Origin: a virus
Virus record (IMG/VR): IMGVR_UViG_3300048839_000462
Location: 1-21,439 of that record
Length of the DNA stretch: 21,439 nucleotides
Reading direction: 5' to 3' (one strand)
Shown here: one piece after another, positions 2,280 to 19,296 of the stretch
How positions within the stretch are numbered: position 1 is the first letter of the stretch
Layout: the number at the start of each line of letters is the position of its first letter
Translations under genes and position numbers: made by a program
Notes under the pieces: generated by a model
The model's database searches: none
Seen by the model: the letters and a program-made list of their open reading frames with translations, nothing else
Told to the model about the DNA's origin: nothing

Positions 2280-4709
2280 ATGGCCACCAAACACGCCAAC
2301 ACGAACAACAATCGCCTCGATTACGCCGGGCTGCAAACGGCGCTTGCCGGCAAGACGAAGCTCTGGGGCGGCTTCTGGGTCAAGTTTACCGACGTGACCG
2401 ATGGCCGCGCGGACCAGTCGATTCTCACGATCCGCAACGCCGCCGACTTTAAGTCGGTCCAATTCTTCTGGGACGAGGTAGCCGGCGGCGGCATCGACCG
2501 CTCGATGTGCGTCTATGTTCGCGACGCCTCCAACGCGGCAGTGACGAAGTTCACCGGCGACGAAGGCGACGTCACCGCCGACGAATGGCACCACTTCATT
2601 TTCTCCGTCGTGTTAAACACTGGCGCCGACACGGCAGACGTGCGGCTGTGGAAGGATGGCGTCGAAGTCGGGACCGCCTCGACGGGAACCTACGTCGACG
2701 TGGGCGGCGGGCTGGACCTGGACGGGACGGTCATTCGCGTCGGCGGCCGGGCTAGCGACAAACCGCTCGACGGCTGGCTCGAAGGCTTGTTTCTCTGCCA
2801 CAGCGGCGAACCGACGACGCAAGAGATTACCGACCTGCAAACCAAGTTGCCGCACGTCGCCCTGGCCGACAGCGCCTCGACGCTCTACTTCTGCCCCGAT
2901 CTGGCCGAGAGCACGACCTACGCCGATCGCGTCAACGCCACGGCCGGCGTGCCGTCGTCCGTTTCGCCAGTGCGGCATTTCGTTTCGTTCCTCGATTACG
3001 GACGTTCGCCCACCATCGTCAACAGCGGCGATCCGCAATACTACGGCGAGTTGCCGCTCGGCGACGCAGGCCAGATGTACGACGATTGGGCCGATTGGCT
3101 CATCGCGCACAAGGCCGCGCTGAACATCATCGGCTGGGTCTGCCCCGGCGATTGGTGCGACGACATGGACGAAGAGGCGCAGTACATCGCCGCCCGCGCG
3201 GCGGTTGATCTTGTTCTGGCCGCCGGCATCTGGGTCTACGGCTCGACCGGAAACCACGACACTAACGCCTCGCGGCAACTCGACCCGCCCGAAGGCTACA
3301 TGATGAGCACCAACGGCCTGCCTCAGTCGCTGTTCAGCGGGCAGGCGACGTTCGACGAGGCGATGCTGACCAGCGGCGCGACTTACGATTCGGATTACTA
3401 CACGTATTCAGCGACGATCATGGACGGCTGGCTGCTGATCTGCCTGCCGTGGGCGCCGTCGACGGCACAACTCGATTGGGCCGTAGCTAAGGCCGCCGAG
3501 CATCCCACGCGCAAGGTCTGGTTGCAGACGCACGTTTTCCTCAATTCTCGCGGCGGCGTCGGCAGCGGTCGCGCGGCCTACGATGCGACGTTCGCCGGGA
3601 CCGGCAACGGCTACGGCGATTACAACGTCGCCGATCGCTATATGCCAAACAACTATAACGTGCCTGGCGGGAGCGAATCGCCCGACCCCGACGGCCAGTA
3701 CCCGACCAACGGCCGCTCGACGGCCCCGCTGGGCAGCGGCTGGTGGTATACGCACCTCGCGCAGATTCCCAACCTGGCGATCATCTCCAACGGCCACGAC
3801 ATCACGGAGATCACGACGCACAAGACGGCGTACAACCTGCTCTTCGGTCGCTACGGCAACAACGTCCTGGCGATCTACTGCAACTCGCAGAGCGTGACCG
3901 ACGGCGGCTACGGCATGTGCCAACTGCTAGAGATCGACGGCAGCAGCGTCAATTGCGTCAGCTACCGCGCGCTGCTCAACAGCGGCGAAGTCTGGACGGG
4001 CGTGAGCAGCAGCTTTGCGCACACGATAACCGAATCAGTGTCGGACGCCGACAACCCCGGCGCGGCGGCAATCGCTCAGGCCGTGCGCGAGGAGTTGGCC
4101 GTCGAACTGGCGCGGCTCGACGCGGCGGTGAGCACCAGAACAACGCCGTCGTCGCTCGCCAACCTCACGTTGGTCGTGAGCGGCATCAACGATTCGGTTT
4201 TGGACGAAGATACCGGTTTGGCGGCCACGGCGGCGAAGATGGACGCCGTGGGGGCCGTGACCGACGCCCTCTCCCCCCGGCTGCCGGGCAGCGGCACGCT
4301 GGCGACGGGGGAGGAACTGACCGGCTTGGCCCACGTAAGCAGCGGCCAGCCGCGTATCAACCGCAAGCCCTCTCCTGCGTTCTCCTACCAAGTCAGCCGC
4401 CGGGCCGACGGTACGCACAAGGTTACACGACCTGTCAGGCTCACGCCTGGCGCCGTCTCCAACGTGTACCCCTACATCGACATGGCCCCGCTATTCGGGC
4501 CAGACGACAACGTGGACACAGTAGGCACGCCGACAGTATCCGGCGGCAGTATCACCGCAGACGCTGAGGGGCCAAGAGACACAGGCTTCTTTCTTGATTT
4601 AGGGGGCACGGCAACCGCGAGCGAGTCGCGGACCATCACTGTGCCGGTGCAGATGGAGAGCGGGACAACGGTCGACGTGGTGATCGATGTCGAGGTGTTT
4701 GCGGAGTGA
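2280..4709 (+). CDS. Chimeric fibre protein: LamG-like domain, metallophosphoesterase, C-terminal beta domain
   Basis: The 809-residue protein has three parts. Residues 1 to about 210 look like a concanavalin A/LamG-type sandwich, with typical stretches such as DEWHHFIFSV, VRLWKDGVEVG and DGWLEGLFLCHSGE. Residues about 235-565 carry calcineurin-like metallophosphoesterase motifs: PGDWCDD (289-295), the signature GNHD (324-327), a His in LQTHVF (418) and a GHD motif (505-507). The first D-x-H motif is degenerate (FLDYGR near 237). The C-terminal region has a linker of the AVREELAVELARLDAAVSTR kind, often found in phage fibres, and ends in a beta-rich domain (about 680-809). I infer a receptor-binding or envelope-modifying fibre whose esterase may act on phosphodiester-containing surface polymers. 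The substrate is unknown. Confidence 0.8.
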   Translation: MATKHANTNNNRLDYAGLQTALAGKTKLWGGFWVKFTDVTDGRADQSILTIRNAADFKSVQFFWDEVAGGGIDRSMCVYVRDASNAAVTKFTGDEGDVTADEWHHFIFSVVLNTGADTADVRLWKDGVEVGTASTGTYVDVGGGLDLDGTVIRVGGRASDKPLDGWLEGLFLCHSGEPTTQEITDLQTKLPHVALADSASTLYFCPDLAESTTYADRVNATAGVPSSVSPVRHFVSFLDYGRSPTIVNSGDPQYYGELPLGDAGQMYDDWADWLIAHKAALNIIGWVCPGDWCDDMDEEAQYIAARAAVDLVLAAGIWVYGSTGNHDTNASRQLDPPEGYMMSTNGLPQSLFSGQATFDEAMLTSGATYDSDYYTYSATIMDGWLLICLPWAPSTAQLDWAVAKAAEHPTRKVWLQTHVFLNSRGGVGSGRAAYDATFAGTGNGYGDYNVADRYMPNNYNVPGGSESPDPDGQYPTNGRSTAPLGSGWWYTHLAQIPNLAIISNGHDITEITTHKTAYNLLFGRYGNNVLAIYCNSQSVTDGGYGMCQLLEIDGSSVNCVSYRALLNSGEVWTGVSSSFAHTITESVSDADNPGAAAIAQAVREELAVELARLDAAVSTRTTPSSLANLTLVVSGINDSVLDEDTGLAATAAKMDAVGAVTDALSPRLPGSGTLATGEELTGLAHVSSGQPRINRKPSPAFSYQVSRRADGTHKVTRPVRLTPGAVSNVYPYIDMAPLFGPDDNVDTVGTPTVSGGSITADAEGPRDTGFFLDLGGTATASESRTITVPVQMESGTTVDVVIDVEVFAE

Positions 4710-4866: not shown

Positions 4867-5421
4867 GAACGGCCAGCGTTTCAACCGGATTCAGGTGAAT
4901 GGGTTCGCCTTGGAGCATTGCAGACGGCCCTTGGGATCGGCAGCGACAACACCCTCACCAAGTGGCGAAAGCGACTGGCGAAGTGGGAACATCACGAGAA
5001 GCGCGGACGCTATCGGGGCCGCTGGGTCTACTTGGCCGGCTGGGTCAGTGACTACCGCGCCGCCGCTGACGCACCCGCTGCCGCCGCTTCTGTCGACGAG
5101 AAGCCAACGGCCAGAACTCGACTAGAGGACGCGAAGGCACGCAAGGCGGAGTTGGAGCTTCGCAAGTTTGAAGGTTCCGTCGTCGACGTCGACGAGTTTT
5201 TCGCGTCACGGTTGGCGCCGTGCCTGGACGAAGTTCGCGGAGCGGCGGAGCGAGTGGCAAAGCGAGCTCCGGAATACAGCCAGGTCATCCTCGACGGTAT
5301 CAATCGCGGAATCGAAAAGCTGCAGGCCAATGGTAGTGCAGGCATTCTCCACGGGACTGGACGCTCTGGGCGCAAAGGCCGCGGTTCGGCTCGCGCCAAG
5401 AATTCCGCTGAGCCATCGTGA
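4864..5421 (+). CDS. Terminase small subunit, lambda Nu1-like
   Basis: Read from ATT 4864 the product is 185 residues, close to the length of lambda Nu1. Residues about 13-34 (WVRLGALQTALGIG then NTLTKW) line up by eye with the Nu1 winged helix-turn-helix start, VxxxxLxxxxGxS followed by T[IL]xxW. The helical middle (RLEDAKARKAELELRKFEG, then VDVDEF) and the ERVAKRAPEYSQVILDGINR segment also fit this family's dimerisation and TerL-contact regions. It should recognise the packaging site and load the large subunit. Oddity: the first 18 codons have AT-rich third positions, while the neighbouring frame there is GC-rich at third positions. A one-base indel near 4919 with a TTG start at 4865 is therefore an alternative. 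It overlaps the large-subunit gene by 92 bases. Confidence 0.8.
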   Translation: MERPAFQPDSGEWVRLGALQTALGIGSDNTLTKWRKRLAKWEHHEKRGRYRGRWVYLAGWVSDYRAAADAPAAAASVDEKPTARTRLEDAKARKAELELRKFEGSVVDVDEFFASRLAPCLDEVRGAAERVAKRAPEYSQVILDGINRGIEKLQANGSAGILHGTGRSGRKGRGSARAKNSAEPS

Positions 5422-7366
5422 ATTCGCTGAGAAATACATTCGCTTGGCGACGGGTCCGCTCAAAGGGGAGCCGTTTCGAGTCGCCAATCAGCCGTTTACT
5501 GGTTTGCTCTTCCATGAATTGGACTCCGGCAAGTGGCCGGAGGTGTACGCTACGGGGCCGTCGCAATCGAGCAAGACGCTCTCGTGCTTCGTGATCCCGA
5601 CGCTGCGGACGGTGTGTGAACTGCGCGAGGACGCCCTCATCGGCGTGCCGGAAGCCGACATGGCGGCCGACAAATGGGACAAGGATTTCCTGCCGACGCT
5701 GAAGGCTTCGCCGGATCTGACGTGGCTGATTCCCCGGGAAGGGCCTGGCAGCCGCGGGGGGCGCATCCGAGACCGTATCACGCTCGGGAGCGGCGTCGAC
5801 ATCAAAATCATGTCCCGAGGCGGGCAAGACACGAACAAAGCCGGCTACACGGCGCCTCGGATCTGCGTGACTGAACTCAAAGGCTTTGGCGGACGAAGCG
5901 AAACGTCGACCGAGGCCGACGACCTCAAGAAGATCAAGGCTCGCCAGCGTGCATTCAGACGGAGCGAGAGGCAATTGCTGGGCGAAGGGACGCTCGGGGA
6001 GCCGCACGAGCTGCCATGGACGCTTCGCGGCGACGACGAAGACGAGACGATCATCAGCACAAGATCGCGGATTGTGTCGCCGTGCCCACATTGCGGTGGG
6101 CATATCGCGCCGACGAGAGAGCATCTGCTGGGCTGGCAGGATGCCGAAAGCGAGTGGCAGGTACAAGATCAGGCGTTTTTTGCCTGCCCGAAATGCGGCA
6201 AGGCGATCAACGACCTGCAACGGCGGCAGTCAATGGCGGAATGCGTTCTAGTTCACTGGGGCCAGACGGTGGATCGCAACGGCCGCGTTCACGGGGATCC
6301 GCCGCCGACGTCGACGCTCTGGTTTCATTGGTGGTGCTGGCACAATCTGCTTCTGGACGCCGCCGATACGGCCGTCGACGAGTGGAAAGCCGCCCAGCTC
6401 GATGAGGGGACCGTCGAACGCGAGAACGCCGAGCGCGAGCTGTGCCAATTCGCGCATGCTGTTCCGTTTAGATCGAAGCTGGCCGAGAACGAGATGTTAA
6501 GCGCTCAGTCCGTGCGGAAGCGCACAGACGAATGGCAAGCCGGCCTGCTGCCGGCTGACACGGTGAAGCTGTTGATCGGCGTCGATATCGGCGATTGGAC
6601 GGCATGGTGGGTCGCGCTGGCTCTTCGGTCTAACGGCTGCCTGCACATCCCTGCTTATGGCGCTTTCGATGTTAAGCGGACCAAAGACGATGAGGCGTCC
6701 ACTCGCGTCGTGGATGCGCTGATCGAATTCAACCAGACCGTCGTCGAGGCTGGTTTTGCCGTCGAATCGAGCGACGGCCTGCGATTGCCGGACGGGGTTG
6801 GCGTTGACCTGGGCCACATGCCGGACGACGTAGCCAAGGCGATTCGTTCGTTCGGCCGAGGCTGGGGCAATCGGTGGAAGGGCCTGCGTGGTCGCGGCGC
6901 TTCCAAGCGTCGCGCCGGGAAAGTAGCTGGTGGATACAACCATCCAACCAGAGTCAGCATGCAGCGTCCGAAGATCGGGACGGAGTGGTTCGCCGACTTG
7001 AACGTGAAGCGCGGTATCCCCGAGATTACCTTCAACGCGGATTACTGGCTGCTGCACATGCAAGACCGATTACGTGCGAAGCGAGGAAGCAAAGGGGCGC
7101 TAACGCTGTTCCGCCCGGACTTCCCGAAGCAGCACGACCGACTGACGAATCACCTGACCGCTGAGCATCTGAAACGCGAGTGGGATCCGACCAAAGGCGG
7201 CCTCGTCGAGAAGTGGATCGTGAACGGCCAGAATCATCTTGGCGATGCGCTCAAGATGGCTCTCGTCATGGGCGACGTTCACGGCTATCGACTCCGAGAT
7301 ATTCCTCGAGAGGAAGCCGAGCCACTGCCGGCCGTCGAGAACTGGTATGCGGGGCTGGCACGATGA
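5330..7366 (+). CDS. Terminase large subunit, lambda gpA family
   Basis: The chosen ATG at 5330 gives 678 residues, near the usual gpA size; the open frame continues upstream but only as overlap with the small subunit. The N-terminal part resembles gpA (LSHREFAEKYIRL...). A Walker A-like loop GPSQSSKT is at residues 76-83. The acidic Walker B position is ICVTELKGFG (178-187), with Thr-Glu instead of the usual Asp-Glu. A zinc ribbon typical of gpA proteins has CPHC (252-255) and CPKC (286-289). RuvC-like nuclease acids are likely Asp419 (GVDIGDW), Asp493 (VDLGHM) and Asp639 (HLGDALKMA). It cuts concatemeric DNA and drives translocation through the portal. The stop overlaps the next start (ATGA). 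Confidence 0.94.
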   Translation: MVVQAFSTGLDALGAKAAVRLAPRIPLSHREFAEKYIRLATGPLKGEPFRVANQPFTGLLFHELDSGKWPEVYATGPSQSSKTLSCFVIPTLRTVCELREDALIGVPEADMAADKWDKDFLPTLKASPDLTWLIPREGPGSRGGRIRDRITLGSGVDIKIMSRGGQDTNKAGYTAPRICVTELKGFGGRSETSTEADDLKKIKARQRAFRRSERQLLGEGTLGEPHELPWTLRGDDEDETIISTRSRIVSPCPHCGGHIAPTREHLLGWQDAESEWQVQDQAFFACPKCGKAINDLQRRQSMAECVLVHWGQTVDRNGRVHGDPPPTSTLWFHWWCWHNLLLDAADTAVDEWKAAQLDEGTVERENAERELCQFAHAVPFRSKLAENEMLSAQSVRKRTDEWQAGLLPADTVKLLIGVDIGDWTAWWVALALRSNGCLHIPAYGAFDVKRTKDDEASTRVVDALIEFNQTVVEAGFAVESSDGLRLPDGVGVDLGHMPDDVAKAIRSFGRGWGNRWKGLRGRGASKRRAGKVAGGYNHPTRVSMQRPKIGTEWFADLNVKRGIPEITFNADYWLLHMQDRLRAKRGSKGALTLFRPDFPKQHDRLTNHLTAEHLKREWDPTKGGLVEKWIVNGQNHLGDALKMALVMGDVHGYRLRDIPREEAEPLPAVENWYAGLAR

Positions 7367-12007: not shown

Positions 12008-12955
12008 ATGTCCATCGAAGCCGTTACCCATCATGGGCCGGGCGAAGTGAAGGCCGTCACGTCCGCAGCGCTCGTGAACGGGCAGCTCGTGCAACTCCCC
12101 GACAGTCGCGCCGGAGTTTACACCGGCCTCAAGGCGGCCGAGGCCGGTGAGTACGTGACGCTTTCCTGCGGTGGCGTGCGTGAAGTTCTAAAAACCGCCA
12201 GCGTCGCCATTCTGGCCGGTCAGGAGGTGTGGGCGAAGATCTCGACGAGTCGAGCGACGTATCGCCTGGCCGGCGATTACTTCGTCGGCATCGCCGTGGC
12301 GGACGCTGCTGCGTCGGCGACGACGGTCAAGGTCGATATGAATGCCCGGCCGAACTACAACATCAATCTCGCCGAGAACGGCGGGCAGTGGACGACTGAG
12401 GCGACGAACGGCCTTGGCGCAACGGCGCTGCTTGGCGGCGGTGTATCGCTCGCGTTCGATGCTGTGGCGGAAGTCGCCCAAGCTGCACTGCTTTCTGATC
12501 GGACTTTCGACGTTGACGACGGCTTGATTTACGAGGTCGAAGCCGCCGTCTTCGACATCGGCAATAACGCCGCTCTCGACATCGACTTTGGGTTGGCCAG
12601 CGCCTCGCACGGCACCGACCTGGGAGCGGTGACGGCGCTTGCGACGATCCACCTGGACGGCAACGATTTGTCGGCGACGACGCAGAGTGACGACAACGTC
12701 ACGGACGTTGCCCCGGATGATACTGGCGTCGATCTGGTTGACGATGCCTGGACGTTCCTGCAGGTCGACGCGCGCGACAAGGACGACGTGAAGTTCTACA
12801 TCAACGGCGTGCGGGTCAACGACGACGGCGCCCACGTCCTGGCGGCCTACACGTCGACGGTCGTCGCGATCGCCCACATGGAGAAGACTTCCGACGACAC
12901 GTCGGCGGAAGTTCGCGTCCGTCGCATGACGGTGCGGTCGCGGGCCGCTGCGTAA
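12008..12955 (+). CDS. Capsid cement/decoration protein: DUF2190 domain plus beta-sandwich domain
   Basis: ATG at 12008 has GAGGA (11995-11999) at good spacing. Residues 1 to about 110 look like the DUF2190 capsid-stabilising fold (GQLVQLPDSRAGVYTGLKAA, the central GQEVWAK turn, FVGIAVADAAAS, then VKVDMN). Residues about 115-315 form a second, beta-rich domain with LIYEVEAAVFDIG, DAWTFLQVDARDKDDVKFYI and VAIAHMEKTS, the pattern of jelly-roll/LamG-like sandwiches. The first domain probably plugs capsid three-fold positions, as lambda gpD does, and the second probably projects outward and may bind surfaces or glycans. The extra domain makes it about three times the length of a plain cement protein. 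Confidence 0.75.
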   Translation: MSIEAVTHHGPGEVKAVTSAALVNGQLVQLPDSRAGVYTGLKAAEAGEYVTLSCGGVREVLKTASVAILAGQEVWAKISTSRATYRLAGDYFVGIAVADAAASATTVKVDMNARPNYNINLAENGGQWTTEATNGLGATALLGGGVSLAFDAVAEVAQAALLSDRTFDVDDGLIYEVEAAVFDIGNNAALDIDFGLASASHGTDLGAVTALATIHLDGNDLSATTQSDDNVTDVAPDDTGVDLVDDAWTFLQVDARDKDDVKFYINGVRVNDDGAHVLAAYTSTVVAIAHMEKTSDDTSAEVRVRRMTVRSRAAA

Positions 12956-13012: not shown

Positions 13013-13435
13013 ATGGCCGAGAAGTATTGCTTATGCGTCGATTGCCTCACCGTCACCCGCGGGGGCGTCAAAAGGACGTACGCACGAGGCGACGACGTGT
13101 CGGAATTGCCGTCTGGCGTTCTCGGCCCGCTGGTCAGGCTGCAGAAGGTCTCGCCGACCCCTCCCCCGACGCCGACTGTCGGGCCGGAGATTGAAGTCGA
13201 GCCTGCCGTTGTCCCGTCGGCGCCCGAAGCGGATTGGCGTGACGCGCCCGTCGCCAGCCTCGGGCTCTCGGTTCACGTCGAGGAAGCGTTGCTGGCGGCC
13301 AACCTGCAAACGGTTCGCGAGGTCATCGCCTACGGGGCTGAAAACGGCGGCTCGTTGGTGAGCCTCAAGGGCATCGGCGCCGCGAGCGAGCGGGCCATCC
13401 AAGAAGCGATCGAGGCGATTATTCCCAAGGAGTGA
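13013..13435 (+). CDS. Helix-hairpin-helix protein in the head operon
   Basis: The 140-residue protein has three parts. The N-terminal domain (1-46) contains CLCVDC and a VTRGGVKRTYARGDDV pattern like the FluMu-type N-terminal domains of Mu-like phages. A Pro-rich linker (48-70) follows. The C-terminal domain (about 80-138) has the LGLSVHVEEALLAANLQTV and SLKGIGAASERAI motifs of helix-hairpin-helix folds, strikingly like the C-terminal domain of RNA polymerase alpha. It sits in the position of lambda FI/head-tail connector genes. It may act in head completion or DNA contact at the portal. A regulatory role by mimicry of alpha is speculation. The upstream Shine-Dalgarno is weak (AGAG, 13001-13004). 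Confidence 0.75.
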   Translation: MAEKYCLCVDCLTVTRGGVKRTYARGDDVSELPSGVLGPLVRLQKVSPTPPPTPTVGPEIEVEPAVVPSAPEADWRDAPVASLGLSVHVEEALLAANLQTVREVIAYGAENGGSLVSLKGIGAASERAIQEAIEAIIPKE

Positions 13436-13438
13436 CCA

Positions 13439-13780
13439 GTGGAAGCAACCCTGAAACACGCCGGCGGCATCATCAAGCGGTACAGCGCCGCCGCTGCGAT
13501 GGATCCTGGCGACGTCGAAGTCATTGGCGAGCGGATCGGCATTGTGTCAGGCGGCAAGCCGATTGAGATCGGAGACGATTACACGCTGCAGACGTGCGAC
13601 GTCTTCGAAATGGACGCCAAGAGCGCCGACGAGTGGAGCGACGGAGACGTTCTGTATTGGGACGCATCGGAGCGAGAACTCACCGACACAGCTGGATCCA
13701 ATGTGAAGGCTGGCCTGGCCGTCGGCGACAAGGCGTCTGGCGCCACGCGAGCCGACTGCGACATCAATAAGCGACAGTGA
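13439..13780 (+). CDS. Second DUF2190-type capsid cement protein
   Basis: GTG at 13439 is chosen because AAGGAG (13427-13432) lies 6 bases upstream and only 3 bases separate it from the previous stop. The 113-residue product matches the DUF2190 pattern from end to end: GDVEVIGERIGIVSG, IGDDYTLQTCDVFEM, the hallmark GDVLYWDASERELT turn, and VKAGLAVGDKASGAT. It probably binds the capsid exterior as a stabilising trimer. It is the second protein of this fold in the operon; the first (12008) carries an extra domain. The stop overlaps the next start (GTGA). Confidence 0.75.
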   Translation: MEATLKHAGGIIKRYSAAAAMDPGDVEVIGERIGIVSGGKPIEIGDDYTLQTCDVFEMDAKSADEWSDGDVLYWDASERELTDTAGSNVKAGLAVGDKASGATRADCDINKRQ

Positions 13781-16865: not shown

Positions 16866-17636
16866 TTGGCTGGCTTTCTCTACTTCCGCTCCGGCGACAC
16901 GCGCCCGCTTAATCGCGCCGGCGTGGTCGCGCTCGGCCTGGGGTACATGCTCGACGGCGGCGGGCTGGAAACGCGGCCGACTTCCAACGGCGGTCCAGGC
17001 GGCAAATCGGGACTGGTGTTCGCCGACGCCAAGCGGCATGCAGACAAGACGCTTGGCTACTACCCGGATCAACAGACGTGGCGGAAGCTGCCGCGCGTCG
17101 AGGGGCGACCAGAGCTGTGGCTTGGGTACTGGAACGATGCGAAGCCGGGGCCGGTGGACTTACAGCGCAAGCGAATGCTGACGGGGGTCCCGCTCACGCT
17201 TGGCGACGACCAGGAATGGTCAATTCCGCGACTCACTGAACTTGACGACGACCGACAAGGAGAGTGCCTACTGCCCGCGCCGCTGGACTATGACGACGAC
17301 GGGAACCTGATTGCCGGCAAGCCGGTAGGGGAGAACGCGGAACTCTGGGACGCGGTGCATCCGGTCGCGCTGGGCATGTGCTTCGAGGACGCTGACACCA
17401 GGGCGACGGCCGAAGATATCCAGCGGGCGGCATTTGCACTTATGAAGCGAAACTACGCCGTCGATATGCCGGAATTGATTGTGCTCGGGACGCTGCAAGA
17501 GGAAATAGCATTGAGCTTGATCATCGTCGCTAGTTGCCGCATGCGATGGTTGGTTGACGCCATTAACAGTTCAAAAAAAAACGAATCCCGGCAACTCGCG
17601 GATGGCTCCAATACGTCCGCTGGCGAAGCGGCCTAG
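16866..17636 (+). CDS. Tail assembly chaperone candidate, short (G-like) form
   Basis: TTG at 16866 follows the previous TAA by two bases and gives a sensible N terminus (MAGFLYFRSGDTRPL); no Shine-Dalgarno is seen, so re-initiation is likely. The 256-residue zero-frame product has a beta-rich N-terminal half (ELWLGYWNDAKPG, then VPLTLGDDQEWSIPR) and a helical C-terminal part (DTRATAEDIQRAAFALMKRN, TLQEEIALSLIIVASCRMRW). Near its end, nine A residues contain the slippery heptamer A AAA AAC (17576-17582). The gene lies directly before the tape measure gene, exactly where lambda and most long-tailed phages make frameshifted chaperones. It is longer than lambda gpG (140 residues). The assignment depends on position and the frameshift signal rather than on fold recognition. 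Confidence 0.65.
   Translation: MAGFLYFRSGDTRPLNRAGVVALGLGYMLDGGGLETRPTSNGGPGGKSGLVFADAKRHADKTLGYYPDQQTWRKLPRVEGRPELWLGYWNDAKPGPVDLQRKRMLTGVPLTLGDDQEWSIPRLTELDDDRQGECLLPAPLDYDDDGNLIAGKPVGENAELWDAVHPVALGMCFEDADTRATAEDIQRAAFALMKRNYAVDMPELIVLGTLQEEIALSLIIVASCRMRWLVDAINSSKKNESRQLADGSNTSAGEAA
17576..17582 (+). promoter_or_regulatory. Canonical -1 programmed frameshift heptamer A AAA AAC
   Basis: In the zero frame the codons read TCA AAA AAA AAC GAA, so the heptamer is in the correct X XXY YYZ register. The -1 frame is then open for 37 codons, ending 2 bases before the tape measure ATG. A small stem CCGCT/AGCGG (17617-17621/17627-17631) lies 34 bases downstream, and an alternative, GCGGA/TCCGC (17598-17602/17616-17620), 15 bases downstream; either could stimulate slipping. 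The A9 tract is exceptional in this GC-rich sequence. Confidence 0.7.
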
Positions 17637-17695
17637 CTCCGCCTAGTTATCAGCCCAGTTGGGCCGACTTGATGGCGCTCAATATAGGACTCTGA
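17582..17695 (+). CDS. T-like -1 frame extension of the tail assembly chaperone
   Basis: After a -1 slip the ribosome would add 37 residues, including GWLQYVRWRSGLAPPSYQPS and then WADLMALNIGL, and stop at TGA 17693-17695. The sequence is Trp-rich and ends in an amphipathic helix, unlike random out-of-frame translation. It fills the otherwise empty gap up to the tape measure ATG at 17698. The full trans-frame product (16866 to 17695) is about 276 residues. In lambda, the GT fusion binds the tape measure and recruits tube protein, and this extension would do the same. Alternatively the A9 tract may be a miscalled A10 and the whole may be one continuous gene. Confidence 0.6.
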   Translation, partial: RIPATRGWLQYVRWRSGLAPPSYQPSWADLMALNIGL

Positions 17696-17697
17696 AC

Positions 17698-19296
17698 ATG
17701 GGCGCTAAGTTTGTTCTCGAAGGGTCGGGCCAAGGCGCCGTCAAAGTTGTCGAGTACCTGACCAAGGCCCTCGACAACAATCAGCTCAGCGCCGAGCGAG
17801 CCGTTAAGTCCGCCAGTCGCTTGGAGAATCAAGCGAAGCGCATCGCTGAAGCTGTAAACCCGCTCGAAAAATACAGCAACAAGATGAAAGAGCTTGCCCA
17901 GCATGTTCAATCTGGGCGGCTCAACATGGACTACGCTCAGCGGGCGGCTGAAAAATATAACCGAGAACTGCACGGCGTCGGCAATTCCGGCGACCGGGCA
18001 TTCGGCGCACAGGCCATCGCGACGATCAAGAATTACGCGCTTGGCATGGTCAGCATTGGGACGGCTGTATCGCTCATTCGCGGTGAGATGCAGGCGTTGA
18101 TCGAACTGGGACAGCGAACCAGCCGGGCTCAGTTAGGCGCTGCCGATTCCGAGGCTGCATTGCGAGAGACAATCGCTACCGATCCACAACGCGATTGGAT
18201 GATTGCGCAGGCCAACCGCATTGCCAAGGAGAGAAACCTCCCCGTCGCCGGAATCTATAACGCGGTAGAGCAGTCGTACGGCGCCGGCGGTGACGCCACG
18301 CTGGCCATTGCGACCGTCGAGGAAGGTACTCGCCAGACGCGCAATATTGAGCGAGTAGTTCAGTTCGCGGCCGGCGTTGGCGACATCGTGCAGGCGACGA
18401 ACATCAAGGACGTCGAGGAGGCTGCCGGCTTCCTGGCGATCACTCAAGCCACGTCACGCATCAAGGGCGAGAAGGTTGCCGCTGCTGCATCAAAGACGGC
18501 GGCGGCGTTCACGGCCCAAGGGGGCAGCGAGGCTGCTGCTGCTGCCATGCTCTCGGCATTGTCAGTTGCCGGCGCCGACCCGGAAGGCGACCGCTCGCGG
18601 ACTGCCGCCATTCAGTTCATTACGAAGTCGGAGGACTTTTTCGACAAGCGGAAGATGCGCAAGTACGGATTGAGCGCTGAGCAAGTCGACACTCCCGACG
18701 AGCGGATGGCATTGCTCCAAGGCAGCGCAGAAATGGGCGCCGACTTTCTGGCGAGCGCCACTTTCGAGGCCGCCATGACGGGGGCCATGCGGAAAACCAT
18801 TCAGGATGATTCCACCAAGCAGCTCTATGCCAGTGCGTTCCGGGCCAACGACCAACGCGACGAGCGATTGAAGGCCGCCGCCGAGCGTCGCGGATACGTC
18901 ACAAGCGGCGATCTGCAACAGACGAAGCAAACCGAGGACATTCTATCCTCCACCGACGAGGCCCTGAGTCTTGGTTCTGAAGCGGTCATTAGCGACGAAG
19001 AGCGCACGAAACTGCGCAGTCGAGTTGGGCAGTTGTTTGGCAGCCAGACAAAAGCTCGCACTCGCATGTTTAGCCGCACTGGCCTTACGCTCGAACGATC
19101 GGAAGTCGAGGACTACATCCAGGGTGAGCTAAGCGAGTTTTATACGCGCGAAAGAGAGAACGAGATTCTATCGCTTGGGTTCTACGAACGGTCGGCCGAG
19201 AAGGACGCCATCGTCAAGGAATTGCAGAACGCCGTTCAGGAATTGCAGGGACTGAACACTAAGACCAAAGCGAAGGTAACGACCCGCGCCGAATAA
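17698..19296 (+). CDS. Tail tape measure protein
   Basis: ATG at 17698 has AGGA (17686-17689) at good spacing, and is preferred over an upstream TTG at 17659 that would overlap the frameshift extension. The 532-residue product is almost entirely helical and rich in Ala, Gln, Glu and Lys, with coiled-coil stretches (SAERAVKSASRLENQAKRIA, then EKYSNKMKELAQHVQ). A more hydrophobic segment, NYALGMVSIGTAVSLI, lies at about residues 106-121, followed by long repetitive helices. Tape measure proteins set tail length at roughly 0.15 nm per residue, so a tail near 80 nm would be expected. This is shorter than lambda's tape measure (853 residues). Codon use is slightly less GC-rich than in the tube gene. 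Confidence 0.85.
   Translation: MGAKFVLEGSGQGAVKVVEYLTKALDNNQLSAERAVKSASRLENQAKRIAEAVNPLEKYSNKMKELAQHVQSGRLNMDYAQRAAEKYNRELHGVGNSGDRAFGAQAIATIKNYALGMVSIGTAVSLIRGEMQALIELGQRTSRAQLGAADSEAALRETIATDPQRDWMIAQANRIAKERNLPVAGIYNAVEQSYGAGGDATLAIATVEEGTRQTRNIERVVQFAAGVGDIVQATNIKDVEEAAGFLAITQATSRIKGEKVAAAASKTAAAFTAQGGSEAAAAAMLSALSVAGADPEGDRSRTAAIQFITKSEDFFDKRKMRKYGLSAEQVDTPDERMALLQGSAEMGADFLASATFEAAMTGAMRKTIQDDSTKQLYASAFRANDQRDERLKAAAERRGYVTSGDLQQTKQTEDILSSTDEALSLGSEAVISDEERTKLRSRVGQLFGSQTKARTRMFSRTGLTLERSEVEDYIQGELSEFYTRERENEILSLGFYERSAEKDAIVKELQNAVQELQGLNTKTKAKVTTRAE

Follow-up and report, generated by a model that had tools for sequence, protein, structure and literature searches.

What joins two reading frames at the 3' end of a phage tail gene, and which machine slips where they meet, are the questions raised by a run of nine adenines (A9) in a viral sequence from IMG/VR. 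The window, by which we mean the whole stretch of DNA analysed here, is an IMG/VR virus record of 21,439 bases, and its A9 run sits near the end of a gene predicted to encode a tail assembly chaperone, ahead of a putative tape measure gene. In phage lambda, the corresponding gene gives a short product, gpG, and a longer one, gpGT, in which the same short product carries a C-terminal extension in the -1 frame that ends just before the tape measure gene. The lambda heptamer is GGGAAAG. Few recoding events are as widely conserved among tailed phages as the G/GT frameshift, which is regarded as ribosomal. A preliminary description of the window proposed that a programmed -1 shift of this kind, read by the ribosome at A AAA AAC, precedes its tape measure gene. 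Here we examine that proposal by comparison with 26 relatives.

Relatives of the locus

A first scan with the fused protein produced one relative (L002), which has A9 and a -1 peptide 49% identical to that of the window (peptide match E 2e-6). With capsid relatives and two profile scans, the number of distinct contigs covering the site rose to 27, the window included. Because the profile scans searched with peptide motifs lying a long way upstream (GYYPDxQTW and variants), the set was not chosen for its A-run; a third profile scan, made with a broader alignment, returned only contigs that were already known. All 26 relatives are uncultured phages, being 25-64% identical to the window, and searches of cultured phages, plasmids and species genomes (prophage scans included) yielded no relative at the sensitivity used. 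The contigs are not fully independent. L019 and L020, and likewise L034 and L035, are near-identical pairs, with the two members of a pair coming from different metagenomes.

Three contigs were left out of the counts. L027 ends before the site. L046 carries a chaperone homologue (5956-6663) with neither A-run nor extension, which ends directly before a putative tape measure start. L008 is a capsid relative with an unrelated chaperone gene (4977-5809) of classical appearance, having a long -1 ORF with GLDPGPLTMRQIYDMWHG and a T8 run (5257-5264) in the overlap.

A probable chaperone gene in the lambda position

The head module of the window is of the lambda type, comprising a GpA-type terminase, a lambda-family portal, protease, capsid and cement proteins. 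Two genes carry phage cement (decoration) domains (12008-12955 and 13439-13780), one of them with a long C-terminal extension; the small protein encoded between them (13013-13435) weakly resembles the C-terminal domain of RNA polymerase alpha (E 8e-4, below the curated cut-off), and an 809-aa ORF before the terminase (2280-4709) has a weak polysaccharide-lyase match, also below cut-off.

The features of the tail locus are collected in Table 1. The best PDB matches of the predicted tube protein are 8xan (E 1e-8), the P74-26 tube 8ed0 (E 8e-8) and the T5 tube 9iny (E 1e-6), and a tail tube homologue lies upstream of the chaperone gene in 24 of the 26 relatives. Tape measure matches in PHROGs are stronger for the corresponding genes of relatives (E 2e-5 in L041, 2e-3 in L029) than in the window. 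The chaperone gene thus lies between those for major tail protein and tape measure, the place that its counterparts occupy in lambda, HK97, P2 and SPP1 (17.5/17.5*).

Table 1. Predicted features of the tail locus in the window.
Feature	Position	Strand	Basis or remark
Major tail (tube) protein, 313 aa	15270..16211	+	AlphaFold2 model, pLDDT 86; PDB tail tube folds
Predicted G-like tail assembly chaperone, 0 frame, 256 aa, TTG start	16866..17636	+	ORF; 27-member family
A9 run, proposed slip site	17573..17581	+	Only A9 in the window; followed by C
-1 frame extension, predicted T-like part of the fusion	17582..17695	+	37 codons and TGA
Putative tape measure protein, 532 aa	17698..19296	+	Weak PHROG tape measure match, E 0.11

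The TTG start (MAGFLYF...) is backed by the relatives, and the 0-frame ORF has the length of 256 residues previously attributed to a G-like protein. Its model (pLDDT 90) combines a beta-rich N-terminal domain with C-terminal helices. No PDB fold matched at E <= 0.001. In a library of viral folds the sole significant match, A0A6J5LCU1 (E 8e-4), carries the annotation tail assembly chaperone and has a modest TM-score of 0.29/0.47. Neither Pfam nor PHROGs matched the protein, searching PHROGs with every one of the 27 members gave nothing useful, and no sequence similarity to lambda-type chaperones was found in PHROGs, Pfam or INPHARED. The family is also unlike lambda in its proportions, with about 238 residues before the shift and an extension of only about 30-55. 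In all 27 contigs the frames are arranged such that the predicted products share an N-terminus, the longer form arising through a change of frame at the 3' end. Gene position, frame change and fold together make it very likely that the gene of the window encodes a chaperone pair of the G/GT type.

The site and its conservation

From the TTG codon, the 0 frame crosses the run as ...AGT TCA AAA AAA AAC GAA... and ends in the tail ESRQLADGSNTSAGEAA. Two heptamers are in register: the A AAA AAC (17576-17582) of the preliminary description and, overlapping it, an A AAA AAA (17573-17579) that we add here. Starting at 17567, the -1 frame stays open until a TGA at 17693-17695 and contributes, after the run, the Trp/Tyr-rich peptide RIPATRGWLQYVRWRSGLAPPSYQPSWADLMALNIGL; both its 37 codons and the two bases that part its stop from the tape measure ATG at 17698 are as first reported. 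The impression that A9 was out of place in this DNA also proved well founded, for such a run is expected 0.04 times per shuffled window, and the 344,002 bases of the 27 contigs hold just 26 A/T runs of nine or more, all of them at the chaperone site.

The run is A9 in 23 contigs, A10 in three (L006, L007, L040) and A7 in one (L013). A -1 step at the run joins the 0-frame ORF to the extension in every contig, and in 26 of the 27 the frames meet at an uninterrupted A9 or A10, the arrangement looked for in transcriptional slippage. The comparison with relatives that the preliminary description had named as a possible refutation went in favour of a frameshift, the site and the -1 peptide both being conserved in the 26 relatives.

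The consensus of the -1 peptide across the 27 contigs, KKxxxxxxxRWLxYxRWxxGLxPxYRPTxADLxxLxxxx, includes a Pro that never varies and Trp and Gly that hardly do, and the conserved part starts shortly after the run. The 0-frame tail, counted from the run onward, varies from four to 52 residues. Pairwise differences at codon positions 1, 2 and 3 of the -1 frame are 0.479, 0.478 and 0.644, a pattern similar to that of the gene body in its own frame (0.517, 0.466 and 0.623); the third position being the most variable, selection acts on the -1 frame. On these comparative grounds, we regard it as almost certain that the tail-chaperone gene uses a frameshift of the G/GT type.

Run length is conserved independently of codon phase

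Ribosomal and transcriptional slippage make different demands on such a run. Classical programmed -1 frameshifting would have tRNA-Lys pairs slip on A AAA AAA or A AAA AAC, with a long run raising the level of slippage, and the minimum run that it needs is nine, eight or seven adenines for a start at codon position 1, 2 or 3 (phases 1 to 3), or one fewer where AAG comes last. At least one A AAA AAA is in register in all 27 contigs, and the phase-3 A9 contigs have two overlapping heptamers; ribosomal slippage is therefore possible at every site, which leaves a purely comparative argument for RNA polymerase. A AAA AAC is in register in just three of the 27. The earlier proposal of a programmed, lambda-like -1 shift before the tape measure gene is supported, while its identification of A AAA AAC, read by the ribosome, as the conserved signal is not.

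What is conserved is length. The run starts at codon position 1 in 13 contigs and at positions 2 and 3 in seven each, and its length is kept whatever the phase, rather than conservation tracking the codon register of a heptamer. Contigs with more adenines on the left of the minimal in-register A AAA AAA tend to have fewer on its right (r = -0.83), such that the total stays at nine, and a variance of total length this low was reached in none of 200,000 permutations. Phases 2 and 3 retain surplus adenines, beyond those a ribosome would need. All seven phase-2 contigs have a following codon with A in first position, as do only 22% of nearby codons. All 13 phase-1 contigs use AAA, never AAG, as their third Lys codon, although 68% of the lysines in these genes are encoded by AAG and A AAA AAG would still be slippery (P about 2e-9, P values here treating contigs as independent, which is only roughly true).

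Phase requires about ten changes on the best tree. Well supported branches force at least two changes of a phase label and are incompatible with a single origin for phases 2 and 3; the well supported clade of the window is itself mixed, with the window, L011 and L005 in phase 3 and L004 in phase 2, all having A9. A length of nine, kept without regard to phase, is what would matter to RNA polymerase, whose hybrid spans about nine base pairs.

Downstream structure and a relative with a short run

A ribosomal site might also be expected to have a stimulator. In the A9/A10 set there is no conserved stem and no conserved Shine-Dalgarno-like element, a strong example of the latter being confined to a few contigs (L028, L032, L039, L040). 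Folding of the 50 nt downstream gives a mean z of -0.59 +/- 0.26 for the set and -0.21 (sd 1.05) for control windows; the value for the window, -0.3, is background. Terminator-like hairpins upstream, beside the run, are likewise absent (mean z 0.01). Since length is kept at nine to ten adenines regardless of phase and no general downstream structure accompanies it, slippage by RNA polymerase fits these sites better than a ribosomal heptamer does.

L013 is different. It is the only member with A7, and its site (in the region 6738-6830) sits in the sole phase where A7 yields A AAA AAA; the heptamer is in register and is followed by a 6-nt spacer and a 12-bp stem, whose z of -3.0 is equalled or passed in 1.4% of controls. 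A site worked by the ribosome would be expected to take this form, and the order of slippery site, spacer and stem resembles that of Escherichia coli dnaX, which the window and its A9/A10 relatives, taken as a group, do not. In L013, the frameshift shared by the family seems to have taken a ribosomal form. Two contigs, L005 and L039, have strong structures downstream of A9, which count against the polymerase, and these may be mixed cases.

Transcriptional slippage as the favoured mechanism

We favour slippage of RNA polymerase at A9, turning A9 into A10 in the mRNA, with a probability of roughly 0.6. While A9 is transcribed, the RNA:DNA hybrid would be able to realign without mismatch, and a fraction of transcripts would gain one extra A. 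The A9 mRNA would then give the short chaperone, and the A10 mRNA would be read straight into the -1 frame to give the fusion, a minority GT-like product bearing the 37-residue extension. By analogy with lambda, the short form may coat the tape measure protein and the extension may recruit the major tail protein. We infer that transcripts are heterogeneous, how often slippage occurs and what each of the two proteins does.

Precedents for such a run at a frame junction come from Thermus thermophilus dnaX, IS elements and Shigella spa13, all of which share the A9 or A10. Slippage has been demonstrated at the A9 of Thermus dnaX, and in many bacteria selection against A/T runs becomes visible at a length of nine (PMC1088944). 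Ribosome sliding is slight at A9 and A10 and robust at A11 (PMC4363877). RNA polymerase of E. coli inserts a base at A7 in 0.39% of transcripts (PMC6260861), and slippage at homopolymers in E. coli and Buchnera, where the hybrid is about 9 nt, rises exponentially with length (PMC5574713). By extrapolation, a low per cent at A9 is plausible, which would be near the 30:1 ratio of lambda (PMC5009743). The E. coli enzyme nevertheless slips little on A7 and slips more readily on runs of T than of A (PMC6260861), and may not match that of the host.

Direction has to be weighed as well. The shift is -1 in all 27 contigs. Antonov et al. (PMC3711429) offer as a rule of thumb, not strictly defining, that orthologues with transcriptional slippage may shift in either direction, one constant direction being a ribosomal sign. 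Single-base insertions predominate in homopolymer slippage, however (PMC5574713), such that the same constant direction is expected of the polymerase, and the rule is weakened.

The parallel with dnaX extends to its evolution, and has its limits. Between species, dnaX mixes long-run and ribosomal-type sites (PMC5009743, PMC3711429), as the family of the window seems to do. In Thermus dnaX, however, slippage makes the shorter product and here it would make the longer; the dnaX-type genes are not phage tail genes; and slippage is demonstrated for dnaX, whereas for this family we infer it. We consider it slightly the better bet that polymerase slippage prevails in this broad group of uncultured phages, with a classical ribosomal form in at least one lineage (L013), after the pattern of dnaX.

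Alternative explanations

The strongest rival is classical ribosomal frameshifting. It would account for the in-register heptamers, for the uniform direction and for the complete site in L013, and it has precedent on its side: accounts of lambda G/GT and its counterparts describe them as ribosomal (PMC5009743, PMC6316719, PMC10885494), as does the searchable literature for every tail-chaperone frameshift. In the mostly open-access literature covered, transcriptional slippage and tail assembly chaperones came together only in general works, whose passages on the subject assign no tail-chaperone shift to polymerase slippage. In the family of the window, however, A9/A10 runs in any codon phase stand where SPP1 has a heptamer, UUUUUUC (PMC6316719); adenines are kept that register does not call for, and the A9 contigs do without the stimulator seen in L013. 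We therefore hold ribosomal slippage alone to be possible but rather doubtful. Polymerase is favoured over ribosome by about 2 to 1, and both could act together.

A second proposal assigns the shift to translation coupling, in which ribosomes in the -1 frame stop beside the tape measure start and reinitiate, with the shift setting the dose of tape measure protein. The -1 stop does lie within about ten bases of the next ORF start in most contigs, yet the extension is conserved as a peptide, with the third-position variability of a -1 reading, and coupling alone has no need of this. We think it improbable as the sole function; coupling and a role for the extension are compatible.

The run might instead be a contingency tract, at which replication slippage toggles fused and unfused states within the phage population, given that homopolymer tracts can be hypermutable (PMC3711429). 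A phase-variable switch would yield a mixture of states, however, and all 27 contigs, from different metagenomes, are unfused, requiring -1; the near-identical pairs L019/L020 and L034/L035 agree in A9 across metagenomes. This uniformity led us to reject phase variation as very unlikely. Nor is it any more credible that the -1 ORF is translated independently, as a small protein from a start codon of its own: possible start codons exist in some relatives but a usable one is absent in 11 of the 27 contigs, the window among them, and the conserved part begins so soon after the run; this too was rejected. Least probable of all is an error of sequencing or assembly hiding one continuous frame, which we dismiss, error-prone as homopolymers are on some platforms, as 27 contigs show the same disposition with very unequal 0-frame tails and the A10 contigs still need -1.

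Implications

Gene callers and heptamer-based tools will miss or shorten genes of this kind. The 26 long runs, set against one short run with a hairpin, offer a natural comparison for testing which machine slips. If our reading is true, it is the ratio of products that is conserved and not the decoding step, in proteins mostly 25-40% identical and with runs in every phase; polymerase and ribosome would then be interchangeable means to one ratio.
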